DNA from: Friedmanniella luteola
GTDB taxonomy: Bacteria; Actinomycetota; Actinomycetes; Propionibacteriales; Propionibacteriaceae
Direction: 5' to 3'
DNA: 64,000 nucleotides
NCBI RefSeq assembly: GCF_900105065.1
Contig: NZ_LT629749.1
Location: 744,001 to 808,000 of the forward strand
Shown here: piece by piece, positions 37,279 through 44,202 of the stretch
Position numbering within the stretch: position 1 is the stretch's first letter
Layout of the letters: each line of letters opens with the position of its first letter
Notes under the pieces: model-generated
What the model was told of the DNA's origin: nothing
Database searches by the model: none
Seen by the model: only the letters and a program-made list of their open reading frames with translations
Translations under genes and position numbers: made by a program

Positions 37279-39777
37279 TCAGGCCGGCCCGGTCAGCCGG
37301 CGGGCGAGGTGCGTGCCGGTCGGCCCGGCGCGGCGGCGGACGACGTCGGCCGGCGGGCCCGCGTCCACCAGCCGCCCGCCCGCGTCGCCGCCGCCCGGTC
37401 CGAGGTCGAGCAGCCAGTCGGCGCCCAGGGCCACGGCGGCGTCGTGCTCGACGACGACCACGGTGCTGCCGGCGTCGACCAGCTCGTGCAGCAGCCGGAG
37501 CAGCCGCTCGACGTCGGACGGGTGCAGGCCGGTCGTCGGCTCGTCGAGCAGGTAGAGCGTGCCGGTCAGCCGGGAGCGCTGCAGCTCGGTGGCGAGCTTG
37601 ATCCGCTGCGCCTCGCCGCCGGAGAGCTCGGTGGCGGGCTGGCCGAGCCGCAGGTAGCCGAGGCCGACGTCACGCAGGGCGGTCAGCCCGCGGACGGCGG
37701 CCGGGATGTCGTCCAGGGCCGTGACCGCGTCGTCGACGCTGAGGTCCAGGACGTCGGCGATCGTGCGGCCGCGGTGGGTGACCTCGAGGGTGTCGGCCGC
37801 GTAGCGGGAGCCGTGGCAGGTGGGGCAGGGGGCGTAGGTGCCCGGCAGGAACAGCATCCGGACGACCAGGAACCCCTCGCCCTTGCAGGTGGGGCAGCGA
37901 CCGGCCGCGACGTTGAAGGAGAACCAGCTCGCCGTCCAGCGGCGGCGGCGGGCCTCGGGGGTGCGGGCGAAGACGGTCCGCACCGCGTCGAAGAGCCCGG
38001 TGTAGGTGGCCAGGTTCGAGCGCGGGGTGCGACCGATCGGCCGCTGGTCCACCACGACGAGCCGGCGGACCGCCGCCAACCCGTCGACCCGGCCGACCGA
38101 CCAGCCGATCCCGGGACCGGCGTCGGCGACCGGGCCGCCCTCCTGCGGGGCGTCGTCGGCGTCCTCCGGCGCCGGTTCCTCCTCGTCGACGTCGGCGGGC
38201 AGCCCGAGGTGCGCCCGGACGACCTCGGCCAGGACCTGCGTGACCAGCGTCGACTTGCCGGCGCCCGACACCCCGGTGACCACCGTGAAGGCGCCGAGCG
38301 GCAGCGCGACGTCGAGGCCGCGCAGGTTGTGCGCCGTGACCCCCGTCAGGGACAGCCAGCCGCTCGGCGCCCGCGGCGCCGGCCGGAGCCGGGGGCGGTG
38401 CGCGGGGTCGAGGAAGCGGCGGGTCGCCGAGGCCGGCACGGCCTGCAGGCCCGCCACCGGCCCGCTGTGCAGCACCCGGCCGCCGGCGCCGCCCGCCCCG
38501 GGTCCGACGTCGACCAGCCAGTCCGCCCCGCGCACCAGCTCGAGGTCGTGCTCGACCAGCAGCACGGTGTTGCCCGCGTCGCGGAGCCCCAGCAGCACCG
38601 CCCACAGGGCTTCGGTGTCGGCGGGGTGCAGCCCGGCGGAGGGCTCGTCGAGGACGTAGACCACGCCGAACAGGCCGGACCGGAGCTGGGTGGCCAGCCG
38701 GAGCCGCTGCAGCTCGCCCGACGACAGGGTCGGCACGGCCCGGTCCAGCGCCAGGTAGCCGAGCCCCAGGTCGACGACGAGCTCGCTGCGGCCCAGCAGG
38801 TCGGCCAGCACCGTGCCCGCCGTGCTCTCCGGCTCGTGCTCCGCCGCCGCGGCGCGGAGCACCGCGGTGAGCTCGGCCAGCGGTCGCGCGGCCAGGTCGG
38901 CGATGTCCTGCCCGGCGAAGGTGACGGCGAGCGCCTCCGGCCGGAGCCGCCGCCCACCGCAGACCGGGCAGGGGGTGGCGTCGAGGTAGCCGCGGAGCCG
39001 GCGGCGCACCGGCGCCGACCGGGTCGACGCGAAGGTCTCGAGGACGTGGGCGCGGACGCTGGTCCACCGGCCCTGGTAGGGCCGCTGGATGCGGCCGGCC
39101 TCGCGCTCGGCGTGCACGGTGACGACGGGCTGCTCGTCGGTGAACAGGATCCACCGCCGTGCCTCCGGGTCCAGCTCGCGCCACGGACGGTCGACGTCGT
39201 GGCCCAGGGTGGCGAGGATGTCCCGGAAGTTCTTCCCCAGCCAGGCGCCCGGCCAGGCGGCCACGGCGCCCTGGCGGATGCTCAGCGACGGGTCGGGCAC
39301 GACGGAGGACTCGCTCACGTCGTAGGTCACGCCGACGCCGTGGCAGTGCGGGCAGGCGCCGGCCGCCGTGTTCGCGGAGAAGGCGTCGGAGTCCAGCCGC
39401 TCGGCCCCGGCCGGGTAGGTCCCGGCGCGCGAGAACAGCATGCGCAGCGAGTTGGACAGCGTGGTCACCGTGCCGACCGACGAGCGCGACGACCCGGCGG
39501 CCCGCTGCTGCTGCAGGGCGACGGCGGGCGGCAGCCCGGTCACCGACGTCACCCGCGGCACCCCGGCCTGCTGGATCAGCCGCCGCGCGTAGGGCGCCAC
39601 CGACTCCAGGTAGCGACGCTGGGCCTCGGCGAAGACGGTGCCGAAGGCGAGCGAGGACTTGCCGGACCCGGAGATGCCGGTGACGGCGACGACGGCCTCC
39701 CGCGGCAGCCGGACGTCCACGTCGCGCAGGTTGTGCTCCCGCGCCCCCCGGACCTCGATGAAGGCGTCGCGCGGCAC
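37279..39777 (-). CDS. UvrA-like ABC ATPase, class II (UvrA2)
   Basis: The 832-residue protein has two ABC ATPase halves: Walker A GISGSGKSS (34-42) and GVSGAGKST (about 507-515), with signatures LSSGELQRLRLA and LSGGEAQRIKLA. Zinc-finger Cys sets are visible (CPHCHGVG, CPVCGGRR, CPTCKGEG, CPTCHGSRY). At 832 residues it lacks the UvrB-binding domain that makes housekeeping UvrA about 950-1000 long. It therefore belongs to the UvrA2/drug-resistance group (as in Streptomyces DrrC and Deinococcus UvrA2), which helps with DNA lesions from intercalators. An acidic insertion with EEEPAPEDADDAPQE precedes the second half. The true uvrA should be elsewhere. Confidence 0.9.
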   Translation of the reverse strand: MPRDAFIEVRGAREHNLRDVDVRLPREAVVAVTGISGSGKSSLAFGTVFAEAQRRYLESVAPYARRLIQQAGVPRVTSVTGLPPAVALQQQRAAGSSRSSVGTVTTLSNSLRMLFSRAGTYPAGAERLDSDAFSANTAAGACPHCHGVGVTYDVSESSVVPDPSLSIRQGAVAAWPGAWLGKNFRDILATLGHDVDRPWRELDPEARRWILFTDEQPVVTVHAEREAGRIQRPYQGRWTSVRAHVLETFASTRSAPVRRRLRGYLDATPCPVCGGRRLRPEALAVTFAGQDIADLAARPLAELTAVLRAAAAEHEPESTAGTVLADLLGRSELVVDLGLGYLALDRAVPTLSSGELQRLRLATQLRSGLFGVVYVLDEPSAGLHPADTEALWAVLLGLRDAGNTVLLVEHDLELVRGADWLVDVGPGAGGAGGRVLHSGPVAGLQAVPASATRRFLDPAHRPRLRPAPRAPSGWLSLTGVTAHNLRGLDVALPLGAFTVVTGVSGAGKSTLVTQVLAEVVRAHLGLPADVDEEEPAPEDADDAPQEGGPVADAGPGIGWSVGRVDGLAAVRRLVVVDQRPIGRTPRSNLATYTGLFDAVRTVFARTPEARRRRWTASWFSFNVAAGRCPTCKGEGFLVVRMLFLPGTYAPCPTCHGSRYAADTLEVTHRGRTIADVLDLSVDDAVTALDDIPAAVRGLTALRDVGLGYLRLGQPATELSGGEAQRIKLATELQRSRLTGTLYLLDEPTTGLHPSDVERLLRLLHELVDAGSTVVVVEHDAAVALGADWLLDLGPGGGDAGGRLVDAGPPADVVRRRAGPTGTHLARRLTGPA

Positions 39778-42823: not shown

Positions 42824-43006
42824 GCTTCCCCCCAAGGGTTCGTCGGGCCGCGCCGGGCACAGGCGCGGTCAGGGGCGACGCTAGTGAGGGCCCCGTGGCC
42901 CGGGGTGAGAGGTGAGAAAGTTGCCCACGACGTTCCCGGTGTGTTCACCGGGGAGCGTCCGACCCCCTCCGACGGCGCCGCGACGCGCCGGTGCCTTGAC
43001 CGCTAT

Positions 43007-43022
43007 TCGCACACGTGTTCGA
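43007..43022 (+). promoter_or_regulatory. LexA-like SOS box
   Basis: TCGCAC-ACGT-GTTCGA differs by one base from the actinobacterial LexA consensus TCGAAC-N4-GTTCGA. It lies between a -35 TTGACC (42996-43001) and a -10 GATACT (43021-43026), the standard place for a repressor to block RNA polymerase. The start ATG follows at 43032. Confidence 0.65.
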
Positions 43023-43031
43023 TACTGGGGC

Positions 43032-43373
43032 ATGGCCACCCGGGACAACCTGCTCTCCTCCGTCCTGCACGGGACGGCCTGGCGGGCCGCGGTCGAGCAC
43101 CGCTCCATCGACGACGCCCTCGTCGAGCTCCGCGCGCTCGCCCGCGGTCGCGACGACGTGCTGGCGGAGGCGGCCGGGGTGACGGCCGGTTCCTGGATGG
43201 CCTGGCCCGAGGTCCGCGTCGGCCACGAGCTGGTGGTCGCCGGACTGCTGGTGATGGCGGCCGAGCGGCTGGACTACGACCTCCTCGCGCACTGGGTGCG
43301 GGTGGGCTACGAACGGGGCCTGCAGGCCCGCCGGCCGGTGCACGGCGAACCGCTCGGGAACGGGATCGACTGA
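43032..43373 (+). CDS. hypothetical protein, possibly SOS-regulated
   Basis: The 113-residue protein is soluble and rich in Ala, Arg and Asp, with mostly helical segments (DDALVELRALARGRDDVLA and AGLLVMAAERLDYDLLA). No family is recognised. The ATG lies 5 bases after the -10 box, so the mRNA is likely leaderless. A LexA-like box overlaps that promoter, so a role in DNA damage response is possible. It ends 34 bases before the SDR gene. Confidence 0.65.
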   Translation: MATRDNLLSSVLHGTAWRAAVEHRSIDDALVELRALARGRDDVLAEAAGVTAGSWMAWPEVRVGHELVVAGLLVMAAERLDYDLLAHWVRVGYERGLQARRPVHGEPLGNGID

Positions 43374-43407: not shown

Positions 43408-44202
43408 GTGCACATCGATCTGAGCGGCCGGACCGCCCTGGTGACGGGCTCGACGCAGGGCATCGGGGCCGCCATCGCCGCCGGCCTGGCGGGGGCGGGC
43501 GCCCGCGTCGGCGTCAACGGGCGCACCCCGGAGTCCGTCGGCCGCGCGGTCGCGGAGCTGCGGCAGCGGCTGCCGGCCGCCGACCTGGTCGAGGTGGCGG
43601 CCGACGTCACCACCGAGGAGGGCACCGCCCGCGCCCTCGCGCTGCTGCCCGACGTGGACGTGCTGGTCAACAACCTGGGCATCTTCGAGGCGACGCCGGC
43701 CCTGGAGATCGACGACGCGGCGTGGCGGCGCTACTTCGAGGTCAACGTGCTGACCGCCGTGCGGTTGACGCGGGCCCACCTGCCGGGCATGACCGCGCGC
43801 GGCTGGGGGCGGGTGCTGAACATCGCCAGCGACTCGGCCGTGGTCATCCCCGTCGAGATGATCCACTACGGCACGTCCAAGACGGCGCTGCTGGCCGTCT
43901 CCCGCGGGTTCGCCAAGGAGGCCGCGGGCACCGGCGTCACCGTCAACGCCGTCATCGCCGGGCCGACGCACACGGGGGGCGTCGAGGCCTTCGTCCGCTC
44001 GCTGGTGGGCGACGAGCTGCCCTGGGACCAGGCGCAGCGGGAGTTCATGCGCCACCACCGACCCCAGTCGCTGATCCAGCGGCTGATCGAACCTGAGGAG
44101 ATCGCGAACATGGTCACCTATCTCGCCTCGCCGCTGGCGTCGGCGACCACCGGCGGCGCGCTGCGCGTCGACGGCGGCTACGTCGACGGGATCCTCCCGT
44201 GA
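43408..44202 (+). CDS. short-chain dehydrogenase/reductase (SDR)
   Basis: The 264-residue NAD(P)-dependent oxidoreductase has the nucleotide motif TGSTQGIG (about 12-19), NNLG (around 85-88), catalytic Ser in IASDSAVV and the YGTSK motif (Tyr/Lys). It belongs to the classical SDR family; ADRHHR-type Arg residues after the second strand hint at NADP. The start is GTG at 43408, with TTG at 43396 as an in-frame alternative. Its stop overlaps the start of the TolB-like gene (GTGA), so the two are coupled. Confidence 0.9.
   Translation: MHIDLSGRTALVTGSTQGIGAAIAAGLAGAGARVGVNGRTPESVGRAVAELRQRLPAADLVEVAADVTTEEGTARALALLPDVDVLVNNLGIFEATPALEIDDAAWRRYFEVNVLTAVRLTRAHLPGMTARGWGRVLNIASDSAVVIPVEMIHYGTSKTALLAVSRGFAKEAAGTGVTVNAVIAGPTHTGGVEAFVRSLVGDELPWDQAQREFMRHHRPQSLIQRLIEPEEIANMVTYLASPLASATTGGALRVDGGYVDGILP

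Follow-up and report, generated by a model that had tools for sequence, protein, structure and literature searches.

LexA blocks the promoters under its control, and RecA-stimulated self-cleavage of LexA opens them. The question raised by the locus described here is whether this control extends to a small gene that lies directly behind a LexA-type box, and what kind of protein would then be produced upon DNA damage. The window, i.e., the whole 64,000-nt stretch of DNA analyzed (G000:C1:744001-808000), is part of the 4.72-Mb single-contig genome of a Microlunatus relative, in a genus that takes in Microlunatus kandeliicorticis and M. flavus.

Putative Promoter, Box, and Gene in the Window

The features of the locus are the following:

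42996..43001, + strand: -35-like hexamer TTGACC, from the sequence (TTGACG at the same position in the related genome G091)
43007..43022, + strand: predicted LexA box (SOS box) TCGCACACGTGTTCGA, from its single mismatch to TCGAAC-N4-GTTCGA, its matrix score, and its retention in relatives
43021..43026, + strand: -10-like hexamer GATACT, from the sequence (relatives have GATACT or other hexamers at the same position)
43032..43373, + strand: gene for a 113-residue protein of an unnamed family, leaderless by layout, from selection relative to G091, profile homologues, and the absence of a family match
43408..44202, + strand: short-chain dehydrogenase (Pfam adh_short), 34 nt 3' of the 113-codon gene

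A sequence-only reading of this DNA had placed the hexamers, the box, the ATG, and the stop codon exactly at these positions, and had described the box as one mismatch away from TCGAAC-N4-GTTCGA; both statements hold, and TCGCACACGTGTTCGA is the sole match to this consensus at up to one mismatch in the 64 kb. It sits between TTGACC and GATACT and ends 9 nt 5' of the ATG at 43032, from which the gene runs to a stop codon ending at 43373. The last 2 bases of the box (GA) are shared with GATACT, within what is a putative promoter. The 19-bp spacer between the hexamers is long for sigma-70 and not ideal, and the 5 nt from GATACT to the ATG give a layout that would fit a leaderless transcript.

The coding sequence is 91% alike in the window and in G091, with the likeness starting at the ATG, and upstream identity is 80% from -45 to -1 and 55% from -170 to -46. 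A longer in-frame ORF, from a GTG at 42912, was rejected as the gene because its upstream frame is not conserved in G091.

Regarding the neighbors, the short-chain dehydrogenase could be expressed by read-through from the promoter of the 113-codon gene; across the neighborhoods of 17 loci, it adjoins the family gene in the window genome and in G091 only. A divergent ScyD/ScyE-type gene was considered as the main target of the box and rejected, because the neighbors differ in M. flavus, G090, and G099, yet the box stays with the family gene. An ORF on the minus strand (37279-39777, 832 residues), 3 kb from the 113-codon gene, looks UvrA-like by eye, and the scan of the 64-kb window found no LexA box at up to one mismatch with it.

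The Predicted LexA Regulon of the Genome

The window genome has a single copy of lexA, whose product carries the Pfam domains LexA_DNA_bind and Peptidase_S24, and the gene scores above the cut-off in all 20 Microlunatus genomes. At up to one mismatch, the whole genome (4.72 Mb) contains 26 sites, versus eight for a reversed-pattern control, so that about one third of such matches are at chance level. The sites were also ranked with a symmetrised matrix built from 57 sites, taken at up to two mismatches within 600 nt upstream of lexA in the 19 other Microlunatus genomes, a choice that implies that a few of the 57 may be chance matches.

This ranking, which the sequence-only reading had suggested as a check, gives TCGCACACGTGTTCGA a score of 22.6 bits, the seventh of the 26 sites, above the boxes of recA and ruvC in the same genome (19.9 bits each). 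The second-best matrix site in the window reaches 11.2 bits, and 100 simulated (first-order) 64-kb sequences contained no site at 22.6 bits. One intragenic site in the genome scores 20.6 bits, so the separation by the matrix is imperfect below that score.

The sites were placed relative to genes with a simple codon-usage gene caller made for this analysis. By this caller, 14 of the 26 are intragenic, or 13 without the site at the radical SAM gene, for which the caller sets a start that overruns the box. Of the other 13 sites, three are upstream of lexA and a gene divergent from it, and one each is upstream of recA, of ruvC, of the genes for the radical SAM protein and for a DUF222-HNH protein, of an imuA-like gene, of the gene for a 122-residue protein, and of the 113-codon gene of the window; the remaining three (1086651, 1375915, and 3239294) have no clear target. 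Pfam bears out RecA, LexA, RuvC, Radical_SAM, and DUF222/HNH beside the boxes, and gives no match for the imuA-like, lexA-divergent, and 122-residue proteins. The boxes at recA, lexA, ruvC, and the radical SAM and DUF222-HNH genes indicate that this motif is the working one in the genome, and it is position together with conservation that lifts TCGCACACGTGTTCGA out from the chance matches. Its half-site variant TCGCAC is also present in lexA-upstream boxes of three other genomes (L084, L086, and L091).

Two further observations concern the regulon at large. The 122-residue protein (L006; G000:C1:1825054) starts 15 nt past the LexA-type box TCGAACGCATGTACGA, which scores 21.8 bits, and the gene on the other side of this box looks HIT-like by eye. 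Moreover, 16 of the 20 Microlunatus genomes have at least two sites (up to two mismatches) within 600 nt upstream of lexA (L078-L097), often 16 and 51 nt apart.

The Protein Family

The sequence-only reading could not place the protein in a family, and the libraries searched agree: Pfam and NCBIfam give no match for the 113-residue protein, and PHROGs and PADLOC none for the six Microlunatus members of alignment A1. Profile searches of PDB sequences returned nothing meaningful, the best E values being 0.037 with alignment A2 and 0.19 with A1. Pfam matches of single distant members, of which the best was DUF5304 (E 0.0058, one of 16 sequences), were not accepted.

As defined by profiles, the family comprises 11 copies in 10 of the 20 Microlunatus genomes, and distant members occur in other actinobacteria. 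A search with the single protein matched 10 of the 198 genomes of the taxonomic family, all within the genus; the first contig scan gave no match, and a second one with profile A1 gave M. kandeliicorticis and M. flavus. Profile searches then matched 16 of 391 genomes in the order sample, 14 (A1) and 22 (A2) of 394 in the class sample, several of the latter being weak and dropped, five of 12 in the genus of G558, and 16 of 245, at 18 places, in the family of G208.

Among the class-sample rows dropped for A2 were G678 (E 2.8e-7), G236, and a second place in G531, all short-chain dehydrogenases by eye, a second place in G238 (E 3e-5), and G739, G677, G268, and G231 (E 1.4e-4 to 8.9e-4); for A1 they were G643 (inspected), G758, G604, and G434. 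In one profile search, all matches outside the 10 Microlunatus genomes (E 1e-3 to 0.1) were also dropped. One of these, in G105 (E 0.0013, internal stops), is perhaps a remnant, and the window's own genome has a weak second match at 553310.

Alignment A2 holds 16 sequences of 102-131 residues. The window protein is 95, 50, 40, 39, and 36% identical to the other Microlunatus members and 25-40% identical to the ten remaining ones; the residues M1, A16, A37, D42, G49, and G53 are invariant. The 113-residue protein is under purifying selection: relative to G091, dN is 0.031 and dS 0.307 (dN/dS ∼0.1), and three pairs in the M. flavus group give dN of 0.07-0.12 and dS of 0.40-0.52. No membrane-spanning stretch was found, the best 19-residue Kyte-Doolittle mean being 1.37 (1.13-1.52 in three members), and crude secondary-structure propensities are mixed to mostly helical.

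In the open literature, as far as titles and the starts of abstracts go and mostly outside subscription papers, no description of the family was found. The sole paper found with both Microlunatus and LexA (PMC9239090) has each word once, and no paper joining Nocardioides, LexA, and SOS box was found in a literature that mostly excludes subscription papers.

Conservation of the Box across Relatives

For the comparison of upstream regions, 37 copies were counted: 11 in Microlunatus, 18 in family f3, which we guess to be Nocardioidaceae, five in genus g76, and three in family f39. The two pieces on G103 contig 407 count as one copy, as do the two pieces in G106. The search covered 300-600 nt upstream; at the G826 copy, it gave a two-mismatch sequence at a distance of 253 nt, which was left out of the count.

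A box at up to one mismatch precedes the gene, or a two-gene unit containing it, in 16 of the 37 copies (7/11 in Microlunatus, 5/18 in f3, 4/5 in g76, and 0/3 in f39), and it is exact in G374, G558, G549, G531, and G227 contig 17. Boxes with two mismatches occur in G103 and G227 contig 22. The remaining 19 copies have no box at up to two mismatches near the start (three in Microlunatus, 12 in f3, one in g76, and three in f39); they are chiefly distant or broken, and those in Microlunatus are G102, cut by a contig end, G103 contig 101, with internal stops, and G107, with no clear start. As to background, the 35 loci that hold 35 of the 37 copies contain 18 sites at up to one mismatch in 239,840 bp, 15 at family genes and three elsewhere.

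The spacing is conserved as well. In 13 of the 15 copies with a direct arrangement, three of which are broken (G103, G106, and G521), a script placed the box 7-12 nt before the start codon, which supports the leaderless layout proposed for the window gene. The other two are G374, at 19 nt, and G302, at 43 nt to an ATG and 7 nt to an in-frame GTG.

The box is kept before Microlunatus copies at 36-50% identity, those of the M. flavus group being at another chromosomal place, and it also precedes some of the still more distant copies from other actinobacterial families. Loss of the box from orthologues had been named as evidence against LexA control, and the outcome is divided. All six intact Microlunatus copies of A1 are boxed, and conservation extends to f3 and g76, but 12 of the 18 copies in f3 and all three in f39 are boxless, so control by the box is not universal.

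Both copies of G227 and that of G254 have the box ahead of a small ORF1, which runs up to the start of the family gene. This ORF1, seen in f3 genomes (L160:1340-1498, L121:4580-4738, and, on the reverse strand, L146), codes for about 50-67 residues, and what look by eye like similar peptides lie ahead of the boxless copies in L122 and L168. Also by eye, the boxless f39 copies (L152, L161, and L153) have a common upstream stretch, about TCGGCCGGAG, before the start, which is perhaps another kind of control.

Genomic Settings of the Family

The copies in the window and in G091 have common neighbors in a plain chromosomal setting, and those of G090, G099, and M. flavus occupy one common locus, different from that of the window. 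Among the rest of the 17 loci compared, no common neighborhood of note was seen. Tape-measure, head-decoration, or endolysin genes are close to the copies in G356 and G246 (two), weaker phage-type matches are close to that of G399, phage-type integrases to those of G549 and G521, and a GntR regulator to that of G558. Queries of phages, plasmids, and viral contigs found no family relative; one match in a viral collection, inside a long tail-like ORF, was taken as chance. With these queries and no PHROG match, the protein falls outside the known phage protein families.

Other neighbors are occasional. A tandem HTH_17/Rv2175c-like DNA-binding protein adjoins the family gene at L119:4062-4664 and L121:5117-5698; as a partner (L119, L121, and L160) it was set aside, being occasional and absent from the Microlunatus loci searched. 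The G827 family copy is followed by a gene (L168:2017-3297) that by eye codes for DNA polymerase IV and that matches plasmid genes so annotated.

Comparison with Known Systems

The gene at box G000:C1:1395763 of the window genome, which we take to be imuA-like, has the same arrangement, with TTGACG, the box, and a GTG start 10 nt past the box, but codes for a different protein of 221 residues. The locus is like the actinobacterial LexA regulon in its motif and in the kind of place that the motif takes over the putative promoter, and the genome has recA, lexA, and the other regulon genes as expected; unlike that regulon, the target protein in the window is in no family of the libraries searched.

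In Streptomyces venezuelae, the LexA consensus is given as tCGAAC-N4-GNNCGa, and in a table of the same study the small hypothetical gene pvnz_37140 is enriched in LexA ChIP and induced 15-fold by mitomycin (PMC9380542). We identified this gene by its box sequence (14 bases), which occurs once in the linear plasmid NZ_CP018075 and begins 24 nt 5' of the ATG of an 83-residue ORF, versus the position of -14 in the table. Like the window gene, pvnz_37140 codes for a small hypothetical protein and has a leaderless-type layout, its own box ending 8 nt before the ATG; the two proteins are not homologous, as the family profile reaches no better than E 0.71 in the plasmid.

Alternative Readings

If TCGCACACGTGTTCGA were a chance resemblance, the gene would lie outside LexA control. 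The 26 genomic sites versus eight in the reversed-pattern control, and the 14 (or 13) of the 26 marked intragenic, leave room for such coincidences, but 16 of the 37 family copies are boxed at the gene start or before ORF1, only three of 18 sites lie elsewhere in 240 kb of the relatives' loci, and the site scores above the recA and ruvC boxes; we regard coincidence as extremely improbable. It is also conceivable, if rather unlikely, that the gene is a cargo or control gene of a mobile element, prophage or integrative, timed by the host SOS response, and that the Microlunatus copies are domesticated remnants. The copies near phage-type genes (G356, G246 with two, and weakly G399), integrases (G549 and G521), or a GntR regulator (G558) point this way, as do the patchy distribution over different loci and several broken copies. 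Against it stand the lack of relatives in phages, plasmids, or viral contigs with the queries tried, the boxless state of the four copies near phage structural genes, and the plain chromosomal neighborhood of the window and G091 copies, which are under purifying selection.

The known SOS division inhibitors SulA, YneA, ChiZ, and SidA are small, SOS-controlled, and poorly conserved, and the window protein, being small, fast-diverging, and predicted to be under SOS control, resembles them in these respects. A further point in favor of a division inhibitor of a new type, working as they do, is that Streptomyces has no clear homologues of the known ones according to the authors of the S. venezuelae study (PMC9380542). 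Unlike the YneA, ChiZ, and SidA type, however, the window protein has no Pfam match, hence no LysM, and no membrane-spanning stretch (best mean 1.37), and no link to FtsZ or FtsW was found; we think it improbable that it works in this way.

Probable LexA Control and a Proposed Mechanism

LexA control, the reading that we prefer, is strongly supported by the single lexA gene, by a box that outscores those of recA and ruvC, and by its retention in distant copies, and pvnz_37140 of S. venezuelae offers a precedent. It is highly probable that the 113-codon gene belongs to the SOS regulon under LexA. Many of its distant relatives have this box in the same position, which makes it very likely that the gene is an as yet undescribed component of the SOS response of bacteria to DNA damage.

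As long as the DNA is intact, LexA dimers would occupy the box, between the -35 and -10 hexamers, and exclude RNA polymerase. Upon DNA damage, RecA on single-stranded DNA would prompt the self-cleavage of LexA and the promoter would open, with a transcript starting at or beside the ATG and translated without a leader. The product would be a small, presumably soluble, and probably mainly helical protein. Our guess is that it serves as an effector in the SOS response and that it most likely does so through binding to another protein, e.g., as a damage checkpoint or as an accessory factor in repair or tolerance; such a checkpoint or repair-accessory role is a speculative assignment, which we hold to be somewhat doubtful. 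Since 10 of the 20 Microlunatus genomes have no family match, the protein is dispensable for the SOS response in the genus.

What the Family May Mean

What is already known here is the control layout, and what is new is the controlled protein. We read these proteins as a putative new family within the SOS regulon, carried in part by mobile elements. Tentatively, it may be a small SOS effector family, spread over several actinobacterial families and moving between chromosomes, prophages, and integrative elements, in which the LexA box is part of the gene unit in many members and which, in some f3 genomes, takes the second position in an SOS unit of two genes, the first coding for a protein of ∼50-67 residues.

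A small gene that stays under a LexA box over a long evolutionary distance, and whose product lies outside the searched libraries, is a direct lead to an unfamiliar step in the actinobacterial response to DNA damage. If the proposal is true, this small SOS effector family could supply a missing damage checkpoint or a new repair modulator.
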